Positions 41,133-50,416 of a stretch of DNA of 64,000 nt are shown here, piece after piece. The DNA is from Pedobacter cryoconitis (GTDB taxonomy: Bacteria; Bacteroidota; Bacteroidia; Sphingobacteriales; Sphingobacteriaceae). Each line of letters opens with the position of its first letter. Within the stretch, counting starts at the first letter, position 1. Both the position numbers and the translations under genes were made by a program. The notes under the pieces are model-generated. The model searched no databases and had not been told where the DNA came from. It worked only from the letters and a program-made list of their open reading frames with translations. The stretch covers positions 434,001 through 498,000 of the forward strand of contig NZ_JACHCE010000003.1 in NCBI RefSeq assembly GCF_014200605.1. Reading direction: 5' to 3'.

Positions 41133-41347
41133 ACGTAAATAATTGATATATCAGCCTATTACCTAGGACTATGTCAATATATTTTGTATTATAAGCCGCT
41201 GAAAGACCAAAATTCTTTTCATCTGACGAAAGGATGATTATGTAACAAATGTGTTTAATCCGCAAAGAAAGAAATTGATAACACGTATTTTCACGCAGAA
41301 AACTGATATTTAAATATTAATCAAAAATAGCTAAAGCGGGACAGTTT

Positions 41348-42022
41348 ATGACGATGACGGATATGAAGGCGATACTAGTTGGTGCAAGCGGCGCGATAGG
41401 CCGGTGCTTACTGCAGGATTTATTAAATGACAGTAATTATAAAGAGGTCCTGATCCTGGTCCGCAGGAAATCAGACATTGAACATCCTAAATTAAAACAA
41501 CTGGTTATAGATTTTAACCGTCTCAGTGACTATTCGGCAGACCTTAAAGGAGATGCTGTTTTTTGCTGCCTGGGAACCACAAAAAGCCAGACTCCCGATC
41601 AGAAAGAATATTTAAAAATAGATTATCAGTACCCTTTAGACATCGCCTGGATGGCTTATACCAATGGCGCACAAAGTTATCACCTGGTATCTGCAATGGG
41701 CGCAGATAAAAACTCTTCTTTTTTTTACAACAGAACTAAAGGAGAAGTAGAAAGTGAACTGAAAACTGTCCCTTTTAAAAGTATCCATATTTACCGCCCC
41801 TCTTTACTGGACGGCAAAAGAACCCAAAAACGCTTTGGTGAAAGTGTTTTGAACAGCTTAATGCAGCTGATTAATCCCTTACTGATGGGCTCCTGGAAAA
41901 AATACAGAAGTATCAAAGTAGAGTCTGTAGCAAAAGTGATGCTGGCCCAGTCACTGAATGACCAGAAAGGCATATTTATACATCCCTCCGATCAGATACA
42001 AATGTTGAGTGATGTGCTATAA
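41348..42022 (+). CDS. NAD(P)-binding oxidoreductase, TIP30-like
   Basis: A 224-aa atypical short-chain dehydrogenase. Cofactor motif GASGAIGR near residue 11, and SAMGADKNSSFFYNRTKGEVE carrying the Tyr/Lys pair (YNRTK). This matches the HTATIP2/TIP30-like group. ATG codons at 41348, 41354 and 41363 are all possible; the last gives the tightest start. Its end overlaps the convergent esterase by six bases. The substrate is unknown. Confidence 0.85.
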   Translation: MTMTDMKAILVGASGAIGRCLLQDLLNDSNYKEVLILVRRKSDIEHPKLKQLVIDFNRLSDYSADLKGDAVFCCLGTTKSQTPDQKEYLKIDYQYPLDIAWMAYTNGAQSYHLVSAMGADKNSSFFYNRTKGEVESELKTVPFKSIHIYRPSLLDGKRTQKRFGESVLNSLMQLINPLLMGSWKKYRSIKVESVAKVMLAQSLNDQKGIFIHPSDQIQMLSDVL

Positions 42023-42838
42023 AAACGTTTTTCTGGCAAAAGCCCAGCATAAAAATGCAGGCAGTGCTTTAGACCAGGTAGCGACATTATGTTTACCCCC
42101 TACCATTTCATAGTAAAAGATATCATCCTGTCTTTTATATCCCTTTTTGGTAAGCTCTTTAATCAGATCAATAGTATCATCAATAGAGTCAATGATAAAA
42201 TTGCGGTTACGGTCGGCCGTTTCATCTTCCGTTCCTGTCATTAACCAGAATTTGAGAGCTGGCTGCCCCTGCGTCTCTCTGACCACCTGATGCATAATCC
42301 TGTCTTCATCTGTATAACCATCTTTCAGGTCCTTTTTTCTCCACCAGAAAGAACCTGAAAAGACCCCTATAGTATCGAAAAAGCTATTATTTTTCCAAAC
42401 GATATCAAAAGCAGTCAGCCCTCCCAAAGAACATCCGGCAAATGCACGTTTACCCAGAAATGGCATTCCACTTTCTTTTTCAATAAAAGGCATCAGCTCT
42501 AAAGTGATGAATTTAGCATAGTTATCAGCCCTGCTGCCTCTTCCTGCAAAATCGGGGACACCAGCAACCCCATATTCTAAAAGCCGGTCTGCCGATGCTT
42601 TAATTGCTACAACAACAACTGGTTCAATTTTCTGGTCTTCATATAGATTATCCAGTGTCTCTTTCAGATTTAATCCGGCAGCATCCTGTCCGTCGTTTAA
42701 CAGCAACAGATTCAGCTTTTCATTACCCAACAATCCTGAAGGATAAAAAATATCTATTTCCACTACCCGCTGTAAATGAACGGATTCTAATTGAAGGCTG
42801 ACAGGGCTTACCCCAGGTATTGACACGGTACTATACAT
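42017..42838 (-). CDS. Esterase D-like alpha/beta-hydrolase
   Basis: A 273-aa cytosolic alpha/beta-hydrolase of the putative-esterase group. The nucleophile elbow is GCSLGG; the chain has the LLLLNDGQDAAG strand and a C-terminal His in GGKHNVATW. It is divergent from the esterase at 43064, with about 225 bases between, so both promoters are in that gap. It may take part in the ligase cluster next door, or be unrelated. Its stop overlaps the convergent reductase. Confidence 0.82.
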   Translation of the reverse strand: MYSTVSIPGVSPVSLQLESVHLQRVVEIDIFYPSGLLGNEKLNLLLLNDGQDAAGLNLKETLDNLYEDQKIEPVVVVAIKASADRLLEYGVAGVPDFAGRGSRADNYAKFITLELMPFIEKESGMPFLGKRAFAGCSLGGLTAFDIVWKNNSFFDTIGVFSGSFWWRKKDLKDGYTDEDRIMHQVVRETQGQPALKFWLMTGTEDETADRNRNFIIDSIDDTIDLIKELTKKGYKRQDDIFYYEMVGGKHNVATWSKALPAFLCWAFARKTFL

Positions 42839-43063
42839 AATTCGAACGAATTCCCTTTCTCACAAATTCCCTGCAAATTTAACAATCTCTGTAATAATAT
42901 GAGTTATTTTTTGACAGCGAACTATATTTAAGGGTATCCGGTTGATCTTTTCAAACCGAATCCTATACAGTTTTAATTAATTGTTCTTCCATAAGAATAA
43001 ATCGGCAAAACCTTTTGCGGTCTAGTGGGGTTTAGCTATATTCAATACATAAAAGGGGAATCC

Positions 43064-43768
43064 GTGAAAGAAGAATATAAAAAATGGTACAGTCCTAATT
43101 TAAGCGGCGAGATAGAACTTCTGATTTACGGGCACAGCGGACACCCTGTATTTCTTTTCCCTACCAGTAAGGGGCGTTATTATGAAACCAAAGACTTTGG
43201 TCTGATCACCTCAGTACAACACCTGATTGAGGATGGAAAAGTTAAAATATACTGCCCCGACAGCATTGATGCACTGAGCTGGTATAATAAATCCATAGCT
43301 CCTGCGGACCGGGCGAAAAATCACAACTGGTATGATAAAATGCTGGTTGAAGAGCTTTTTCCTCTGGCAACCCATGAAACAGGATACGAAAAAGTGGTAA
43401 CTGCCGGCTGCAGCTTTGGCGGTTATCATGCCGCAAATTTCGCTTTCAAACATCCTGCACTGGTCAGTCATCTTTTTAGCATGAGCGGTACTTTTGATAT
43501 CAGCCCGCAAGCGGACGGCTTTTATAACAATGATATTTACTATAATAACCCTGTCGATTTCCTGCCCGGAGATCAGGACCCGGATTTATGGAAAATATCC
43601 ATTATACTAGGTACTGGTGACAGAGATATTTGCAGATCATTTAATGAGAGGCTATCTGGTATCCTTTATCAAAAAAACATAGCGCACTGGCTGGATATCA
43701 GGCCCGGTGCAGACCATGACTGGCCGGTATGGCGCCAGCAATTTCCAGAATACTTATCAAAAATATAA
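43064..43768 (+). CDS. Esterase-like alpha/beta-hydrolase (GTG start)
   Basis: A 234-aa alpha/beta-hydrolase. I chose GTG 43064, three bases after an AAGGGGAA ribosome site, since the text then starts MKEEYKKWYSPNLSGEIEL as in related esterases; a GTG at 43025 adds thirteen residues. The nucleophile elbow is GCSFGG, and GADHDWPVW carries the catalytic His. It heads the plus-strand ligase block, 40 bases before the ATP-grasp gene. It could release or trim an amide- or ester-linked product. Confidence 0.82.
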   Translation: MKEEYKKWYSPNLSGEIELLIYGHSGHPVFLFPTSKGRYYETKDFGLITSVQHLIEDGKVKIYCPDSIDALSWYNKSIAPADRAKNHNWYDKMLVEELFPLATHETGYEKVVTAGCSFGGYHAANFAFKHPALVSHLFSMSGTFDISPQADGFYNNDIYYNNPVDFLPGDQDPDLWKISIILGTGDRDICRSFNERLSGILYQKNIAHWLDIRPGADHDWPVWRQQFPEYLSKI

Positions 43769-43808
43769 ATCATATCAGCTTCATCACCTCTAATTAAAAA
43801 AAAATTCT

Positions 43809-44936
43809 ATGAAGAAAATAGGCATTTTATTCGGACAGGAGCGTTCATTTCCTGAAGCCTTCGTGAAACGTGTAAATGAATTAGGAGGAAAAGACTTCAA
43901 AGCAGAATACGTAAATATCAGTAAAATATACCAGGCAGAACCATTGGATTATGCGGTAATTATTGACCGCATTTCTCAGGATGTACCATTCTACAGGGCA
44001 GCGCTGAAAAACGCAGCAATTACTGGAACTGCGGTGATTAACAACCCTTTCTGGTGGAGCGCTGATGAGAAGTTTTTTAATAATGCACTGGCTGTTAAAC
44101 TGGGAATACCAGTACCTAAAACGGCCCTGATCCCTTCTCATGCAAGGCCTGATGATACGACAGAAAATTCTTTCAGCAATCTGGCTTTCCCTTTTGACTG
44201 GGAGCATATTTTTGAATATACGGGCTTCCCGGCCTACATGAAACCTTTTGACGGGGGTGGCTGGAAAGAGGTTTATAAATTGAATACTAAAGAGGAGTTT
44301 TTTGATAAACATAGCCAGACACATCAGCATGTGATGATGCTGCAGGAAGAAATCGAGTTTGATGAGTATTTCAGATGTTATTGTATAGGTGGAAAATATG
44401 TACGCATTATGCAATACGAACCCCGCAACCCCTTCCATTTGAGATATGCTGTGGATCAAAAAGTCTCCAGTGAAGAGCTGCTTCAAACGATACATGACTA
44501 TGTCATTAAACTGAACCAGTATTTAGGTTATGATTTTAATACGGTAGAATTTGCTGTTCGTGATGGTATTCCCTATGCAATTGACTTTTGCAACCCCGCA
44601 CCCGATGCTGAGGTATCCAGTGTAGGACAGGAAAATTTTGACTGGGTAGTCGATACCTCAGCTAAATATGCAATAGAAAGGGCAAAAGCACAGATCAACG
44701 GACAGGACAATTTAACCTGGGGCGAATATGTAAAATCGGCAATTGCCGGAAAACCATTATCAGCCAAAGGTACGCCGGCAAAAACAGTTGAGGTTAAAGC
44801 TAAAACAGCTCAGCCTAAAACTGTTCAAGCCAAAACTGACACGACTGCAAAACCTAAAACAGCTGCTAAAAATACAACACCCGATAAAAAGGCAAAACCC
44901 GCAGCAGCTGGTAAAACTGCTGCAAAGAAAAAATAA
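43809..44936 (+). CDS. ATP-grasp ligase with Lys/Ala-rich tail
   Basis: A 375-aa ATP-grasp enzyme, presumably joining a carboxylate to an amine via acyl phosphate. Seen: AYMKPFDGGGWKEVYKL (nucleotide lysine and glycine loop, about 140-156), MLQEEIEFDEYFRCYCIGG, and FAVRDGIPYAIDFCNPAPD, where the acidic and Asn residues bind metal. Residues 321-375 form a tail with 15 lysines among 55 residues, plus Ala, Thr and Pro, like histone H1. The tail is not part of any ATP-grasp fold. It leads the ybdK-like, amidotransferase and second ATP-grasp-like genes. Confidence 0.85.
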   Translation: MKKIGILFGQERSFPEAFVKRVNELGGKDFKAEYVNISKIYQAEPLDYAVIIDRISQDVPFYRAALKNAAITGTAVINNPFWWSADEKFFNNALAVKLGIPVPKTALIPSHARPDDTTENSFSNLAFPFDWEHIFEYTGFPAYMKPFDGGGWKEVYKLNTKEEFFDKHSQTHQHVMMLQEEIEFDEYFRCYCIGGKYVRIMQYEPRNPFHLRYAVDQKVSSEELLQTIHDYVIKLNQYLGYDFNTVEFAVRDGIPYAIDFCNPAPDAEVSSVGQENFDWVVDTSAKYAIERAKAQINGQDNLTWGEYVKSAIAGKPLSAKGTPAKTVEVKAKTAQPKTVQAKTDTTAKPKTAAKNTTPDKKAKPAAAGKTAAKKK

Positions 44937-44943
44937 ACTCGAT

Positions 44944-44951
44944 AAGGAGGT
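44944..44951 (+). promoter_or_regulatory. Exceptionally strong Shine-Dalgarno (AAGGAGGT)
   Basis: AAGGAGGT lies six bases before the ATG at 44958. It is complementary to the 16S 3' end over all eight bases. Most genes in this window have no such site, so this start may be translated at a raised rate. Confidence 0.75.
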
Positions 44952-44957
44952 TTCAAG

Positions 44958-46064
44958 ATGATGAATGAATTTACGCTCGGTGTAGAAGAAGAGTACATGG
45001 TCATTGACCCGGTTACCCGTGAACTGACTTCACATGATCAAAAGATAGTGGAGGCTGCGCAGAAAATCCATAAAGACCAGGTAAAAGCAGAGATGCACCA
45101 GGCCGTTGTGGAAGTAGGTACTGGTATTTGTAAAAATACGGAACAGGCCAGGAAAGAAATCTCGCAACTGCGCCATACGGTTTCAACATTAGCCGGTGAA
45201 CAGGGCTTACGCATTGGCGCTTCAGGAACCCACCCTTTTTCTCACTGGGAAAAACAGTTGATTACTGAACATCCAAGATATAGTGAGATCGTAAATGAAC
45301 TGCAGGAAGCTGCACGTTCTAACCTGATTTTTGGACTGCATGTGCATGTAGGTTTCCAATCGCGCGAGCTGGCTATTCATATTGCTAACCAGGTGCGCTA
45401 TTTTTTACCGCACGTTTTCGCTTTATCGACCAACTCTCCTTTTTGGGAAGGAAGAAATACAGGTTATAAATCCTATAGAACTAAAATCTTTGATAAGTTT
45501 CCAAGAACCGGTATTCCGGACGTATTCAATAGTATAGAAGACTATGATAATTACGTTAAATTATTGATTAAGACCAATAGCATTGATAATGCAAAAAAAA
45601 TCTGGTGGGATATCCGTGTCCATCCTTTCTTTGAAACCATCGAGTTCAGAATTTGTGATTGCCCGATGCTGATTGATGAAACTATGGCTTTTGTAGCCTT
45701 GTTCCAGGCTCTTTGCGCTAAATTATATAAACTTCGATTGCAGAATATGAGTTTTATCAATTATTCAAGGGCACTGATCAATGAAAATAAATGGCGGGCA
45801 GCACGTTATGGTATCGACGGGAACCTGATTGATTTTGGTAAGGAGATGGAAATTAACTGCCGTAACCTTGTCCTTGAATTACTAGATTTTGTGGATGATG
45901 TAGTGGATGAATTAGGATGCAGAGAGGATCTGAATTATATCCACAAGATTCTGGAAAATGGTACCGGAGCAGACCGTCAGCTGGCTGTTTACTCACAAAC
46001 CGGCAGTTTTGAATCGGTTGTGGATTATATTACTTCACAAACCTTAATTGGGGCACACGCATGA
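44958..46064 (+). CDS. YbdK-type carboxylate-amine ligase
   Basis: A 368-aa member of the glutamate-cysteine ligase 2 superfamily (COG2170). Seen: FTLGVEEEYMVIDP at the N terminus (metal/ATP Glu residues), AEMHQAVVEVGTGIC, FGLHVHVGF and WWDIRVHPFFETIEFRICD near 215-233. YbdK itself is a weak glutamate-cysteine ligase; the true substrate here is unknown. Start ATG 44958, directly after a strong ribosome site, with an adjacent ATG at 44961. Its stop overlaps the next start (ATGA). Confidence 0.92.
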   Translation: MMNEFTLGVEEEYMVIDPVTRELTSHDQKIVEAAQKIHKDQVKAEMHQAVVEVGTGICKNTEQARKEISQLRHTVSTLAGEQGLRIGASGTHPFSHWEKQLITEHPRYSEIVNELQEAARSNLIFGLHVHVGFQSRELAIHIANQVRYFLPHVFALSTNSPFWEGRNTGYKSYRTKIFDKFPRTGIPDVFNSIEDYDNYVKLLIKTNSIDNAKKIWWDIRVHPFFETIEFRICDCPMLIDETMAFVALFQALCAKLYKLRLQNMSFINYSRALINENKWRAARYGIDGNLIDFGKEMEINCRNLVLELLDFVDDVVDELGCREDLNYIHKILENGTGADRQLAVYSQTGSFESVVDYITSQTLIGAHA

Positions 46065-46891
46065 CAGGACAAATAAAAGAAATAAAGGTTGCCGTAATAG
46101 ACATGAATAAAGGGGTGCCTAATCAGGGACTGAGAGGTATTCTTGATATTGTGGCTACTTACAAAAAAGAACATGCGCTGGATTTGTCCTGTAAAGTATT
46201 TGATCTGCGGGTAAAGAATGAAATACCAGGAACTGAATATGATATTTATATTTCAAGCGGAGGTCCCGGCAGCCCTTATGAAGGGGAAGGCCAGGCCTGG
46301 GAAAACTCATTTTTTGATCTTCTGGATAACCTTGAAGCTTATAATCAAACACACGATCTTAAAAAATACGTCTTCCTGATCTGCCATTCATTCCAGATGG
46401 CCTGCCGTAAATATGGCCTGGGCATGGTGACTGAAAGGAAATCCAATGCCTTTGGAATTTTCCCGGTAACGCTAACTGAGCAGGGTGAAAATGATATCAT
46501 TTATGCCGGCCTGAATAACCCTTTTTATGCAATTGATAGCAGAGACTGGCAGGTGGTAGATGCGGAGGATGAAACTTTCAGCGAAACCGGAGCAGAGATT
46601 CTGGCACTTGAAAAAGAACGTCCTCATGTTGACCTGGAACGCTGTATTATGTCAATTCGTTTTTCGAAAGAGTTTGTAGGTACACAATTCCATCCCGAAG
46701 CAGACCCTGAGGGCATGAGACTCTATCTTTTGGAAGAGGAAAAGAAAAATAAAATTATTGAGGACCATGGAGAGGAAAAGTATCTTGACATGCTGGAAAG
46801 CCTGGATCATCCGGAAAGAATCCTGCTGACCCAGCAATCAATCCTTCCTAATTTTTTAACTGAAGCTATTCAATCGCTAAAAGAAGCCTGA
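46061..46891 (+). CDS. Class I glutamine amidotransferase-like protein
   Basis: A 276-aa protein with the triad C108, H211, E213 (LICHSFQ; QFHPEAD) of class I amidotransferases, which free ammonia from glutamine. The elbow reads C-H-S instead of the usual C-x-G. SSGGPGSP (65-72) is the oxyanion-type loop. It may supply ammonia to a partner ligase, or act as a peptidase or amidase. It overlaps the YbdK-like gene by four bases and stops one base before the next start. Confidence 0.85.
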   Translation: MTGQIKEIKVAVIDMNKGVPNQGLRGILDIVATYKKEHALDLSCKVFDLRVKNEIPGTEYDIYISSGGPGSPYEGEGQAWENSFFDLLDNLEAYNQTHDLKKYVFLICHSFQMACRKYGLGMVTERKSNAFGIFPVTLTEQGENDIIYAGLNNPFYAIDSRDWQVVDAEDETFSETGAEILALEKERPHVDLERCIMSIRFSKEFVGTQFHPEADPEGMRLYLLEEEKKNKIIEDHGEEKYLDMLESLDHPERILLTQQSILPNFLTEAIQSLKEA

Positions 46892-46892
46892 T

Positions 46893-48098
46893 ATGATCCA
46901 TACTTACAGGGAATATTTTAACCGGAATTTTACAAGAGATAAGTATGTGAGTTTTTTACAGATGCTGGGCAAAGACTATCCGCCAGTATCGATAAGATTC
47001 GCTGAAACACCAATCTTTATTCCTGAAGATTTAAAGAATCAACTGATCGAAGCGGGTGAAGAGATCATCAAATTAATCAAACAACCTGATTTCAAAACGC
47101 TTACAGAACAGTCCATTCCTAAAGAATGGACTGTTCCTAATGAAAATGACCATCCTCATTTTCTAGCTTTTGACTTTGGTATATCCAAAGATGAAAAGGG
47201 ACGGCTGGTACCAAGACTCATAGAAATGCAGGGATTTCCTTCACTTTTCGGTTTCCAGCTTCATCTGGCCGACACCTATAAAGAAGTATTTGAGCTGAAT
47301 AACCTGGCAGATTTCAGTCCGTTTTTTAATGGCATAGATCAGCAGGAGTATATCGCTTTATTAAAAAAGGTAATCCTGGGGCCATATGCCCCCGAAGAGG
47401 TTGCATTAATGGATATTGATGCCCCAAATCAAAAAACTGCGATTGATTTTTTTGTGACAGCAAAACATCTGGGTATCCGGATTCTAAGCCTGACAGATAT
47501 TTTCAAAGAAAATGGCCAGCTATTTTACAAGGAACAGGGAAAGAAAATACGGTTAAGAAGGATTTATAACCGCTTGATTTTCGACGAGGTCAGCACACAG
47601 CAAGACTTATTCAAGATCAGTTTTGACCCCCGTGAACCTGTCGATGTCGAATGGATAACACATCCTAACTGGTTCTACAGAATCAGTAAGTATACGATGC
47701 CATTTCTGAAGAATGAATTTGTACCAGAAACCCGGTTTCTGAATACCATAGCATCAATTCCTGCTGATCTGGAGAATTACGTACTTAAACCTTTGTTTTC
47801 ATTTGCAGGAATGGGTGTAATTATAGATGTGACTCAAACGGATATCGAAGAGATAGCTGATCCCGAAAACTGGATATTACAGCGAAAAGTAAATTACGAG
47901 CCCGTTGTAAAATCGCCGGATGGCTATGTAAAAGCAGAGATCAGGCTTTTATATATCTGGCCTGACGGTGAAGAACCGCAATTATGTATTAACCTGGCAC
48001 GGTTAAGCAGGGGAAAAATGATCGGAGTACGCTATAATGCTGATTTTGATTGGGTTGGAGGCACCGTAGGCCTGATGGCACAAGAAATTGACAATTAA
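46893..48098 (+). CDS. ATP-grasp-like protein of unknown family
   Basis: A 401-aa soluble protein I do not recognise by name. The C-terminal half looks like ATP-grasp: YVLKPLFSFAGMGVII (about 290-305) would be the lysine and glycine loop, and ENWILQRKVNYEP and AEIRLLYIWPDGEEP follow in the right order. The N-terminal half has no obvious match. It begins one base after the amidotransferase stop, so it is the fourth gene of a tight ligase block. Confidence 0.75.
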   Translation: MIHTYREYFNRNFTRDKYVSFLQMLGKDYPPVSIRFAETPIFIPEDLKNQLIEAGEEIIKLIKQPDFKTLTEQSIPKEWTVPNENDHPHFLAFDFGISKDEKGRLVPRLIEMQGFPSLFGFQLHLADTYKEVFELNNLADFSPFFNGIDQQEYIALLKKVILGPYAPEEVALMDIDAPNQKTAIDFFVTAKHLGIRILSLTDIFKENGQLFYKEQGKKIRLRRIYNRLIFDEVSTQQDLFKISFDPREPVDVEWITHPNWFYRISKYTMPFLKNEFVPETRFLNTIASIPADLENYVLKPLFSFAGMGVIIDVTQTDIEEIADPENWILQRKVNYEPVVKSPDGYVKAEIRLLYIWPDGEEPQLCINLARLSRGKMIGVRYNADFDWVGGTVGLMAQEIDN

Positions 48099-48136
48099 CA
48101 GACTCCATGAGAAAATGAATTAATTATAATTGTATT

Positions 48137-48295
48137 ATGGATATTCAAGCTATTTTAGTAGGCCTTTTATTTGTTGCTGCCCTGTTTTATATCGGACGGC
48201 TCATTTATCGTGCTGTATCCCCAAAAAGTGGCGGATGCGGATCTAATTGCAAATGTGGTGTAGATTTCTCTAATATTGAAACTAAGAATAAATAG
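48137..48295 (+). CDS. FeoB-associated-type Cys-rich small membrane protein
   Basis: A 52-aa protein with an N-terminal transmembrane segment (about 4-26) and a C34-x3-C38-x-C40 cluster in a Gly-rich stretch. That layout matches the FeoB-associated Cys-rich membrane proteins. No feoA or feoB lies in the window, so it may be an orphan. It stands 18 bases before a Crp-family regulator, which may share its transcript. Confidence 0.75.
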   Translation: MDIQAILVGLLFVAALFYIGRLIYRAVSPKSGGCGSNCKCGVDFSNIETKNK

Positions 48296-48312
48296 TTTTC
48301 ATCTATATCAAT

Positions 48313-48900
48313 ATGTTCGAACAGCTTAAAGAGTACTTACAGAAAAGAATTACAGTAACTGATGAGCAGTTTGAACTGATTTCAAGAGATATTAAAGTTA
48401 AAGTTTTTGAGAAAAACCAGGTGCTTGTTGCTCCTGGAGATATCAATTCCAAGGGTTATTTTGTAACCGAAGGATTAATCCGCTGTTATTCTGTAGACAG
48501 TAAAGCAAAGGTTAATATCATTCAGTTCGCTCCCGAGAACTGGTGGATGTCTGAAAGGAACAGTCTTTTCAACGAACCTTCTGATTTCTATATTGATGCT
48601 GTAGAACGAACTACGGTATTGCAGATTCCGAAAAACTATTTCGACGATGCCGCAAAAAATATCCCTTGTTTCGCTGACCTGAATTATACGATGCTTAACA
48701 ACTCGATCCGCTTTATGCAAAGAAGGATCAATATGTTATTAAGTGCTACCGCTGAGGAAAGATACCTTGATTTTATCAAATTATACCCAAACCTTACACT
48801 GAGGGTTCCACAATGGATGATTGCCTCTTATCTGGGCATTACTCCAGAGTCCTTAAGCCGCGTACGTAAAGACCTGGCACACAAACATTTTAAAGTTTAA
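48313..48900 (+). CDS. Crp/Fnr family transcription regulator
   Basis: A 195-aa regulator. An N-terminal cyclic-nucleotide-binding-like jelly roll (about 20-120) is followed by the dimer helix and a helix-turn-helix at about 160-190 (WMIASYLGITPESLSRVRKDL; read WMIASYLGIT, PESLSRVRKDL). There is no Cys cluster as in Fnr, so it probably does not sense oxygen through Fe-S. The target may be neighbouring genes. It lies between the small Cys-rich gene and yceI. Confidence 0.9.
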   Translation: MFEQLKEYLQKRITVTDEQFELISRDIKVKVFEKNQVLVAPGDINSKGYFVTEGLIRCYSVDSKAKVNIIQFAPENWWMSERNSLFNEPSDFYIDAVERTTVLQIPKNYFDDAAKNIPCFADLNYTMLNNSIRFMQRRINMLLSATAEERYLDFIKLYPNLTLRVPQWMIASYLGITPESLSRVRKDLAHKHFKV

Positions 48901-48942
48901 CATTTCTTATCATACATCAACACCCACGCCTAACAATAGCTT

Positions 48943-48950
48943 TAATTTTG
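48943..48950 (+). promoter_or_regulatory. -7 promoter box (TAATTTTG) of the YceI gene
   Basis: TAATTTTG matches TAnnTTTG exactly, 36 bases before the ATG at 48987. No clear -33 TTG is seen. Confidence 0.5.
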
Positions 48951-48986
48951 TGTTATACTAAAAAACCAATATTAAAAACAAAGATT

Positions 48987-49517
48987 ATGGCAACTACTAA
49001 ATGGGTATTAGATCCAACACACAGTGAACTTCAATTCAAAGTAAAACATTTAATGATCTCTACTGTAACAGGTAGCTTCAATGAATTTTCTGCAGAATTA
49101 GCGACTGATAACGATGACTTCGAAAATTCAACTGTTTCATTTAAAGCAGGCGTAGATTCTATCGATACGGGTAATAAAGACAGAGACGGTCACTTGAAAA
49201 GCGGTGATTTCTTTAATGCTGCTGAATTTCCATCAGTTTCATTTGTATCTACTTCATTCACTAAAGATGGTGATGATTACAAATTAGCAGGAAACCTGAC
49301 TATTAAAGACGTAACTAAACCAGTAACACTTGATGTTGAATTTGGTGGTACCGCACAAGATCCATGGGGTAATACTAAAGCAGGTTTTACAATCAAAGGA
49401 AAAATAAACAGAACTGATTTTGGCCTTACTTACAATGCAGCACTGGAAACTGGTGGTGTAATGTTAGGTGAAGAAGTTCGCGTATTAGGTGAATTGCAAT
49501 TTGCAAAACAAGCTTAA
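48987..49517 (+). CDS. YceI family lipocalin-like protein
   Basis: A 176-aa protein with the YceI lipocalin-like barrel, a family that binds isoprenoid or similar lipids. Start ATG 48987 (MATTKWVLDPTHSELQFKVKH, read as MATTKWVLDP and LQFKVKH) rather than an upstream in-frame start. No signal peptide is seen, so it looks cytoplasmic, unlike E. coli YceI. Pirin follows 26 bases later. Confidence 0.92.
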   Translation: MATTKWVLDPTHSELQFKVKHLMISTVTGSFNEFSAELATDNDDFENSTVSFKAGVDSIDTGNKDRDGHLKSGDFFNAAEFPSVSFVSTSFTKDGDDYKLAGNLTIKDVTKPVTLDVEFGGTAQDPWGNTKAGFTIKGKINRTDFGLTYNAALETGGVMLGEEVRVLGELQFAKQA

Positions 49518-49543
49518 TAAGCAACATTAATTATAAAATTTTT

Positions 49544-50416
49544 ATGGGAACCAATGTAAAATCCGTTTCGGCTGTTTTAGATGCACCGTCACCGCATATG
49601 GTGGGGGATGGCTTTAAAGTAAGTAATTTTTTCCCAGGAGGTTACCAGATTAAAATGAGCCCCTTCTTTTTGCTCGATTTTAATGACAAAACAGAGCTGT
49701 TGCCAACTAATCAATTACGCGGTGTTGGTGTACATCCGCACCGTGGTTTTGAAACAGTAACCATTGCTTATCATGGAGCTATTGCGCATCACGATAGTTC
49801 CGGGAACAGCGGGATAATTTATGCCGGTGACGTTCAGTGGATGACTGCTGCAAGTGGTATTCTGCATAAAGAGTATTTTGAAAAGGAATTTAGCCAGCAG
49901 GGCGGCCTGTTTCAGATGGTGCAATTATGGGTAAACCTGCCGGCAAAAGATAAAATGAGTAAGCCTAAATATCAGGCTATTCAAAATGATACTATTGAAA
50001 AATATGTACTGCCTGAAAATGCAGGGGTAATAGAAATCATTGCAGGCGAATATAATGGGTCTAAAGGTACAGCAAGTACATTTACGCTTTTAAATGTATA
50101 TAATGCACGCTTAAATGCCGATGGTGAAGCTGTATTTAATTTTCCTGCCGGTTTTAATAGCGGGATATTGATTGTTGAAGGCAGCGTTGTCATCAATGGA
50201 GAAAAAGCAATTGGAAATCAGTTTGTCTATTTCAAAAATGATGGAGAAGAAATCCACGTTAAAGCTTCTGAAAACAGTATTATTTTAGTCTTGAGCGGTG
50301 AACCTATTAACGAACCCGTTGCACAATATGGTCCGTTCTTAATGAATAACCAGGCAGAGATAAAATTAGCCATCAACGATTATAATGAAGGTAAATTTGG
50401 CTACCTCGAGGATTAA
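49544..50416 (+). CDS. Pirin family protein
   Basis: A 290-aa bicupin. The metal-binding motif HPHRGFETVT lies near residue 65 with further ligands AYHG... His and the Glu in GILHKEYFEKE. Pirins of bacteria include quercetinases and redox proteins; the exact activity is unknown. It sits behind yceI and ends at a strong terminator. Confidence 0.93.
   Translation: MGTNVKSVSAVLDAPSPHMVGDGFKVSNFFPGGYQIKMSPFFLLDFNDKTELLPTNQLRGVGVHPHRGFETVTIAYHGAIAHHDSSGNSGIIYAGDVQWMTAASGILHKEYFEKEFSQQGGLFQMVQLWVNLPAKDKMSKPKYQAIQNDTIEKYVLPENAGVIEIIAGEYNGSKGTASTFTLLNVYNARLNADGEAVFNFPAGFNSGILIVEGSVVINGEKAIGNQFVYFKNDGEEIHVKASENSIILVLSGEPINEPVAQYGPFLMNNQAEIKLAINDYNEGKFGYLED

Follow-up and report, generated by a model that had tools for sequence, protein, structure and literature searches.

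Six genes of Pedobacter cryoconitis, comprising two esterases, three amide-bond makers and one candidate amide cutter, form a block that is kept together over much of the Bacteroidota. The block lies in a 64,000-nucleotide stretch of contig NZ_JACHCE010000003.1 (the window) and consists of a run of five plus-strand genes, estB, grasp1, gcs2, gat and grasp2 (43064–48098), and a divergent gene, estA. By analogy with characterized enzymes, the locus is probably a non-ribosomal peptide-amide pathway with a logic like that of glutathionylspermidine synthesis and a different enzyme set. A preliminary description of the run had proposed that it produces or tailors a small metabolite of peptide-like or amidated character. 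Although neighborhood, co-occurrence and invariant motifs all support an amide-bond-forming operon, tailoring of a small metabolite stays an interpretation, and the last enzyme points more narrowly to ligation of a peptide to an amine, as in glutathionylspermidine. We therefore suggest, tentatively, that the locus is a conserved pathway in which a gamma-glutamyl short peptide would be built and capped with an amine. A peptide-amine conjugate as the product is a comparably tentative proposal, and a polyamine as the capping amine is doubtful.

A conserved block of six genes

The open reading frames (ORFs) of the window confirm the earlier account of five consecutive plus-strand genes. The run opens with estB (43064..43768, plus strand), an alpha/beta hydrolase (PF00756, 6.4e-8, and PF00561) with a GTG start that it shares with several homologues in an alignment of 19. 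It continues with grasp1 (43809..44936, plus), a RimK/LysX-like ATP-grasp ligase without a Pfam match; gcs2 (44958..46064, plus), a YbdK-type carboxylate-amine ligase (GCS2, 1.1e-61); gat (46061..46891, plus), a free-standing protein of the class I glutamine amidotransferase (GATase) fold (PF00117, 2.7e-11); and grasp2 (46893..48098, plus), an ATP-grasp ligase with the predicted fold of glutathionylspermidine synthetase. Counted from the GTG at 43064, the gaps are 40, 21, −4 and +1 bases, the last two being those already remarked upon. The run of five is real, but it is not the whole set: estA (42017..42838, minus strand), which lies beyond the coordinates originally given and encodes an enterochelin-esterase-like alpha/beta hydrolase (PF00756, 1.5e-25), also belongs, since 64 of the 70 relatives with room for it have a homologue on the opposite strand, no more than 3.5 kb upstream. 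The 225 bases between the divergent genes (42839..43063) are the only sizeable upstream gap and thus the likely promoter region. A sigma-70 scan of 41300–49000 was uninformative, returning 12 sites, fewer than the 20.2 expected in shuffled sequence.

A grasp1 profile yielded 584 confirmed stretches, and neighbors were counted by tblastn in the best 80, all of them from Bacteroidota; having been picked as best-scoring, these 80 lean toward the host's own kin. Among loci with room on both sides, all six genes are together in 40 of 54, and estA, grasp1 and gcs2 stand alone in 10 of 54, mostly from Chitinophagaceae. Considered singly, and again where there was room, gcs2 lies downstream of grasp1 in 68/72 loci, gat in 47/62 and grasp2 in 44/58, and estB lies upstream in 54/73. 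The arrangement is far from what chance would give: within the host's class, further families share the gene order, and the order from first ligase to last is found in families outside the class as well; the flanking genes differ. Close to home, 37 of 59 genomes around the host have grasp2 (33 of the 36 of the genus, host included, and four others) and 36 have grasp1 (32 of the 36 and the same four others).

Is the association only one of position? Among 296 Bacteroidota genomes, grasp1 is present in 108, gcs2 in 101, gat in 70 and grasp2 in 92, after removal of six weak grasp1 matches (E-values 9e-6 to 9e-4; 114 to 108) and two sub-cutoff gcs2 matches (103 to 101); 178 genomes have none of the four. 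Nearly all genomes with grasp2 also have grasp1 (89/92) and gcs2 (87/92), and those with gat have grasp1 in 69/70 cases and grasp2 in 55/70. The Fisher p-values for these associations are tiny and ignore phylogeny. More telling is that co-occurrence persists where the genes sit on separate contigs or far apart: three genomes (G084, G099 and G188) retain grasp1, gcs2 and grasp2 in spite of their separation, with neither partner adjoining the grasp1 and gcs2 stretches, and in several genomes of one family (f25) grasp2, with or without gat, is located elsewhere than grasp1. The preliminary description had named scattered homologues without a shared neighborhood as the outcome that would speak against it. 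What we found instead was a conserved order and, in unlinked genomes, continued co-occurrence, and the comparison thus favors reading the genes as an amide cluster. We regard the linkage of the genes as established.

The distribution of grasp1 is wide: counting weak matches, it reaches 82 of 139 genera at E ≤ 0.001, usually with one strong match per genome; in two genomes the open frame is longer than grasp1. Spread on plasmids was considered and rejected, as tblastn of grasp1 and grasp2 against 72,556 plasmid records gave no matches. In six loci, five from Cyclobacteriaceae and one from Cytophagales, an additional alpha/beta hydrolase is inserted between estB and grasp1; the one scanned (L145) resembles S33 peptidases and has an apparent signal peptide. 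In three loci, grasp1 is directly followed by a gene that, in the one scanned (L191), encodes a putative Uma2-type nuclease; where gcs2 can also be seen, this gene separates it from grasp1.

Folds and catalytic residues of the enzymes

The assignment that most affects the interpretation is that of grasp2. Its AlphaFold (AF2) model, built from 46 aligned sequences, is of high quality (predicted local distance difference test [pLDDT] 93.3; predicted template modeling score [pTM] 0.92). In VIA-align the model is closest to YgiC (Z 26.1 over 344 residues, 3.5 Å), followed by YjfC (25.8), GspS (24.5), human GSS and plant homoglutathione synthetase (both 24.2), fungal Cp1B (23.1) and trypanothione synthetase (TryS; 23.0). 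The GSP_synth/glutathione synthetase fold group as a whole scores Z 19.6–26.1 over 315–370 residues, and the other matches shown score 12.7 (3k1t) or 8.5 and lower; Foldseek agrees. On the basis of the model, grasp2 is a member of this superfamily with the full-length fold, including the N-terminal domain. Thus, "ATP-grasp-like", as the protein was first called, was correct as far as it went, and a narrower class can now be given. E111, R227, D231, K299, G306, G308, E349, R351 and R370 are invariant in 46/46 aligned rows. At the level of profiles, 14 of the 46 relatives match GSP_synth (PF03738) at E ≤ 0.1 (best 5.2e-5), under the gathering score; the single bit score seen, in L103, is 20.3 against a gathering cutoff of 29.3. 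The grasp2 profile matches YgiC at E = 0.017. As profile alignments are partial and of low probability, we argue the kinship from the predicted fold.

What do the relatives of grasp2 do? YgiC and YjfC are labeled peptide-spermidine ligases in RefSeq and are called peptidylpolyamine synthetases in PMC12568646, which cites Pederick 2023. The whole fold of grasp2 is shared with these two proteins and with GspS (13–14% identity) and TryS (10%), at Z 22–26 over 315–346 residues. The amidase of bifunctional GspS is a cysteine hydrolase of the CHAP fold. Like bifunctional GspS, the locus pairs an amide ligase with a cysteine hydrolase, although the hydrolase here has the class I GATase fold; and, unlike GspS, TryS, YgiC and YjfC, the locus has further ligases, one YbdK-type and one RimK-like, besides two esterases.

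The membership of gcs2 is clear from sequence: it scores 542.9 bits against a cutoff of 371 for PRK13515 (NF010039) of the YbdK (GCS2) family, and 13 checked Glu, His, Arg and Cys positions are invariant in 23/23 rows. Whereas E. coli ybdK adjoins no ATP-grasp or amidotransferase gene, gcs2 belongs to a fixed multi-ligase operon. For grasp1, the resemblance to RimK, LysX and ArgX covers residues 44–247 (rimK_fam, TIGR00768; 4.9e-8), and the score of 32.7 bits is far below the curated cutoff of 143.4; its operon differs from theirs, as does its basic C-terminal tail. The KPxxGGG loop and E247, D259 and N262 are unchanged in 26/26 members. The C-terminal end of grasp1, from about residue 320 to 375, forms a tail that recalls histone H1 in its abundance of Lys, Ala, Pro and Thr; a tail of at least 20 residues with at least 60% of these four is present in 50 of 119 homologues, and the tail is shorter than 20 residues in 60.

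In the esterases, the GxSxG[GAS] motif is kept in 82/83 homologues of estA, the exception being a 90-residue fragment, and in 80/81 of estB. The estB exception (L088:9533-10255) lacks the catalytic serine, reading GCDLG, and is adjoined by grasp1, gcs2 and grasp2.

By sequence, gat is a class I GATase (PF00117; 43.9 bits against a cutoff of 22.8), its triad (C108, H211 and E213) and GGPG loop are kept in 25/25 rows, and its AF2 model has a pLDDT of 92.9. The model is nearly equally close (Z 21.5–24) to TM1158, DnfC, MetA-type acyltransferases, SMU.1228c and the gamma-glutamyl peptidase GGP1 (Z 22.1). GGP1, TM1158, DnfC and MetA have the fold of gat at 14–19% identity, gat having its own Cys-His-Glu triad. 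Since glutaminases, MetA and GGP1 match about equally well, the fold does not discriminate among their chemistries.

More informative is what replaces gat. In four loci (L087, L089, L091 and L102), an M29-type metallopeptidase lies where gat would be, between gcs2 and grasp2, all four proteins scoring 52–65 bits for PF02073 against a cutoff of 27. Six of the 296 genomes have the M29 family, and all six lack gat; in five of them the M29 gene occupies the gcs2-grasp2 slot. The profile was built from four of the six, so that two are independent, and in one of these two (G263) the gene lies outside the operon. Within the 89 genomes with both grasp1 and grasp2, M29 and gat exclude each other (p = 0.003). 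Amide hydrolysis accounts for a peptidase in this slot more readily than ammonia supply does, and gat may therefore act as a hydrolase of gamma-glutamyl or other amide bonds instead of donating ammonia.

A second substitution affects grasp2. Fifteen of the 296 genomes have grasp1 and gat without grasp2; in the ten such loci mapped, the gene after grasp1 encodes a protein of about 450 residues (10/10), gat comes next in 9/10 (the tenth contig ends first) and estB precedes in 8/10. Of two of these proteins scanned, one passes CP_ATPgrasp_2 (1.8e-9) and the other falls below the cutoff; a profile built from eight such proteins picks up the GspS-like structure 3n6x (1.2e-8). Judged by these matches, a different amide ligase, similar to circularly permuted ATP-grasp type 2, takes the place of grasp2 in the operon. 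The profile of grasp2 itself aligns to this replacement over partial length, with probability 10.5.

A further variant bears on the substrate. In one distant relative (G180, L217:2637-5240), grasp2 is fused to a sodium/solute symporter, the two parts spanning residues 1–460 and 475–864 of a single 867-residue ORF. The run itself contains no transporter, as first noted; the fusion shows that a relative does have one. A symporter is also near grasp2 in two other genomes (G188 and G327), and the nearest solved relatives of that in G188 (L097) are choline transporters. This kinship, within one family, suggests an amine-like small substrate.

A proposed pathway and its alternatives

If each fold performs its known chemistry, the steps might be as follows. 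gcs2 would link glutamate, through its gamma-carboxylate, to an amino compound, giving a gamma-glutamyl amide, and grasp1 would add a second residue. grasp2 would then convert the free carboxylate of the short peptide to an acyl phosphate and cap it with an amine, as YgiC, YjfC and GspS do with spermidine. gat, or the M29 metallopeptidase in its stead, could hydrolyze a gamma-glutamyl or terminal amide bond, maturing or recycling the product, and estA and estB could take ester or thioester groups off the precursor or the product. The pathway is probably cytosolic.

Several observations weigh against this scheme. The identity of grasp2 to solved ligases is just 8–16%, the window protein has no match in Pfam or NCBIfam scans, and its profile aligns to YgiC, YjfC and GspS over 54 columns with a probability of 49. 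gcs2 is missing from 4 of the 54 genomes in which grasp1, gat and grasp2 occur together, and hence a gamma-glutamyl step cannot be universal. Separately, two Saprospiraceae loci (L148 and L185), L155 and the loci of G119 and G036 retain the order grasp1-gat-grasp2 with no intervening gcs2. Nor is gat enriched with gcs2 among grasp1 genomes (57 have both, 34 gcs2 only, 12 gat only and 5 neither), so gat is not simply the remover of what gcs2 adds. Glutaminase-type GATases and MetA acyltransferases align to gat as well as GGP1 does, and 29 of the 35 genomes with grasp1 and grasp2 that lack gat also lack the M29 family. As for the amine, NspC is present in only 3 of 80 genomes, and the polyamine comparison described next is weak (p = 0.03) and confounded by phylogeny.

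That comparison concerns the deoxyhypusine-synthase (DS) family. In Bacteroidota, a DS-family protein may act as a homospermidine synthase, and the host has one. Among hand-picked genomes, a DS-family or NspC enzyme is present in 39/40 with the cluster and 32/40 without it, and DS-family enzymes alone in 38/40 and 31/40. Because the family is common in both groups, it supports polyamines weakly; the survey is compatible with a polyamine acceptor and goes no further.

Might gat instead be a genuine glutaminase and supply grasp2 or grasp1 with ammonia, the operon converting a carboxylate of a small molecule to its amide (CONH2)? The invariant class I triad and GGPG loop would fit, as would the glutaminase-type enzymes among its best structural matches. 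gat and grasp2 abut and remain adjacent in three loci (L076, L077 and L079) whose mapped neighbors include neither gcs2 nor grasp1. However, 37 of the 92 genomes with grasp2 lack gat, gat tracks grasp1 more closely than grasp2, and it is found in 15 genomes without grasp2, though the other ATP-grasp protein stands in there. We also know of no M29 peptidase that supplies ammonia from glutamine, and such peptidases replace gat in place. On balance, ammonia supply is unlikely. Modification of a protein is more improbable: here the RimK-like ligase would put glutamate or a small tag on a protein tail, and the other enzymes would make or remove the tag. Matches of grasp1 members to the models of RimK alpha-L-glutamate ligase (26/26) and LysX (17/26) are in its favor, with the window protein far under the cutoff, and the basic tail could target nucleic acid or ribosomes. 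Yet this tail is short in half of the homologues, the mapped flanks (ORFs of at least 70 residues) contain no recurrent carrier or substrate protein, and the folds closest to grasp2 act on small peptides.

A third possibility is a glutathione-like thiol pathway, in which gcs2 would make gamma-Glu-Cys, an ATP-grasp enzyme would add a residue and the esterases would resemble S-formylglutathione hydrolase. Glutathione and trypanothione follow the same enzyme logic, a GCS2 enzyme combined with an ATP-grasp ligase and a GSS/GspS fold, and GshB was undetected in the host: its model (TIGR01380) found no match in a search that recovered 8 of 14 controls, E. coli included (of GshA, GshB and GshF, the host search covered GshB). 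However, the host genome encodes BshC and so probably uses bacillithiol, gcs2 passes the PRK13515 cutoff and no glutamate-cysteine ligase cutoff, and the esterases match enterochelin-esterase-like models, under the cutoff, with no S-formylglutathione hydrolase model among the matches listed. We rate such a pathway slightly below protein modification. Ordinary glutathione synthesis was rejected as a separate candidate, since the presence of BshC and the lack of a detectable GshB make it unlikely. The least probable of the alternatives is a cluster for tailoring a secondary metabolite or siderophore-like compound, with the enterochelin-esterase-like hydrolases working on the completed product. 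The presence of amide ligases and of two PF00756 esterases would suit it, as would the lack of any housekeeping annotation, whereas the breadth of the distribution, mostly with one strong match per genome, and a conserved core without receptor, exporter or peptide synthetase would not.

A graspetide cluster was also judged unlikely: gaps within the run are at most 40 bases and leave no room for a precursor gene, although the flanks of 225 and 214 bases could hold a short ORF and relatives were mapped for ORFs of at least 70 residues. In the accessible portion of PMC8939145, the terms YbdK, GCS2 and carboxylate-amine are all absent.

Flanking genes and biological meaning

Past grasp2, 214 bases separate the operon from a Crp-like gene. 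This regulator and two further genes, which we take to be YceI-like and pirin-like, occupy 48313–50416 and are present in most Pedobacter-type loci and not in the other families mapped. The crp gene was seen in 19 of the best 80 of 584 loci, all from Pedobacter, Sphingobacteriaceae or, once, Flavobacteriaceae.

None of the papers listed in our literature searches describes this operon. A 2009 survey by Iyer and colleagues reportedly predicted uncharacterized amidoligase pathways from groupings of genes for ATP-grasp, GCS2 and peptidase proteins, and it may show parts of this arrangement. Returning to the amine-capped gamma-glutamyl peptide, its fullest form would be a family of undescribed gamma-glutamyl peptide-polyamine conjugates, widespread in Bacteroidota and made by a six-gene operon with three amide ligases, in which two unrelated hydrolases fill the release step and two ATP-grasp families the capping step. 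Such conjugates would be functional analogues of glutathionylspermidine and trypanothione. Taken jointly, these propositions are as doubtful as the polyamine itself.

YbdK-type ligases are widespread and their biological roles are unclear, and most genes of this operon carry generic names. An operon that includes a grasp2 with the predicted glutathionylspermidine-synthetase fold offers a testable pathway for the YbdK group. If our proposal is correct, much of the Bacteroidota would keep an unrecognized soluble metabolite, possibly a peptide-polyamine conjugate, alongside bacillithiol.

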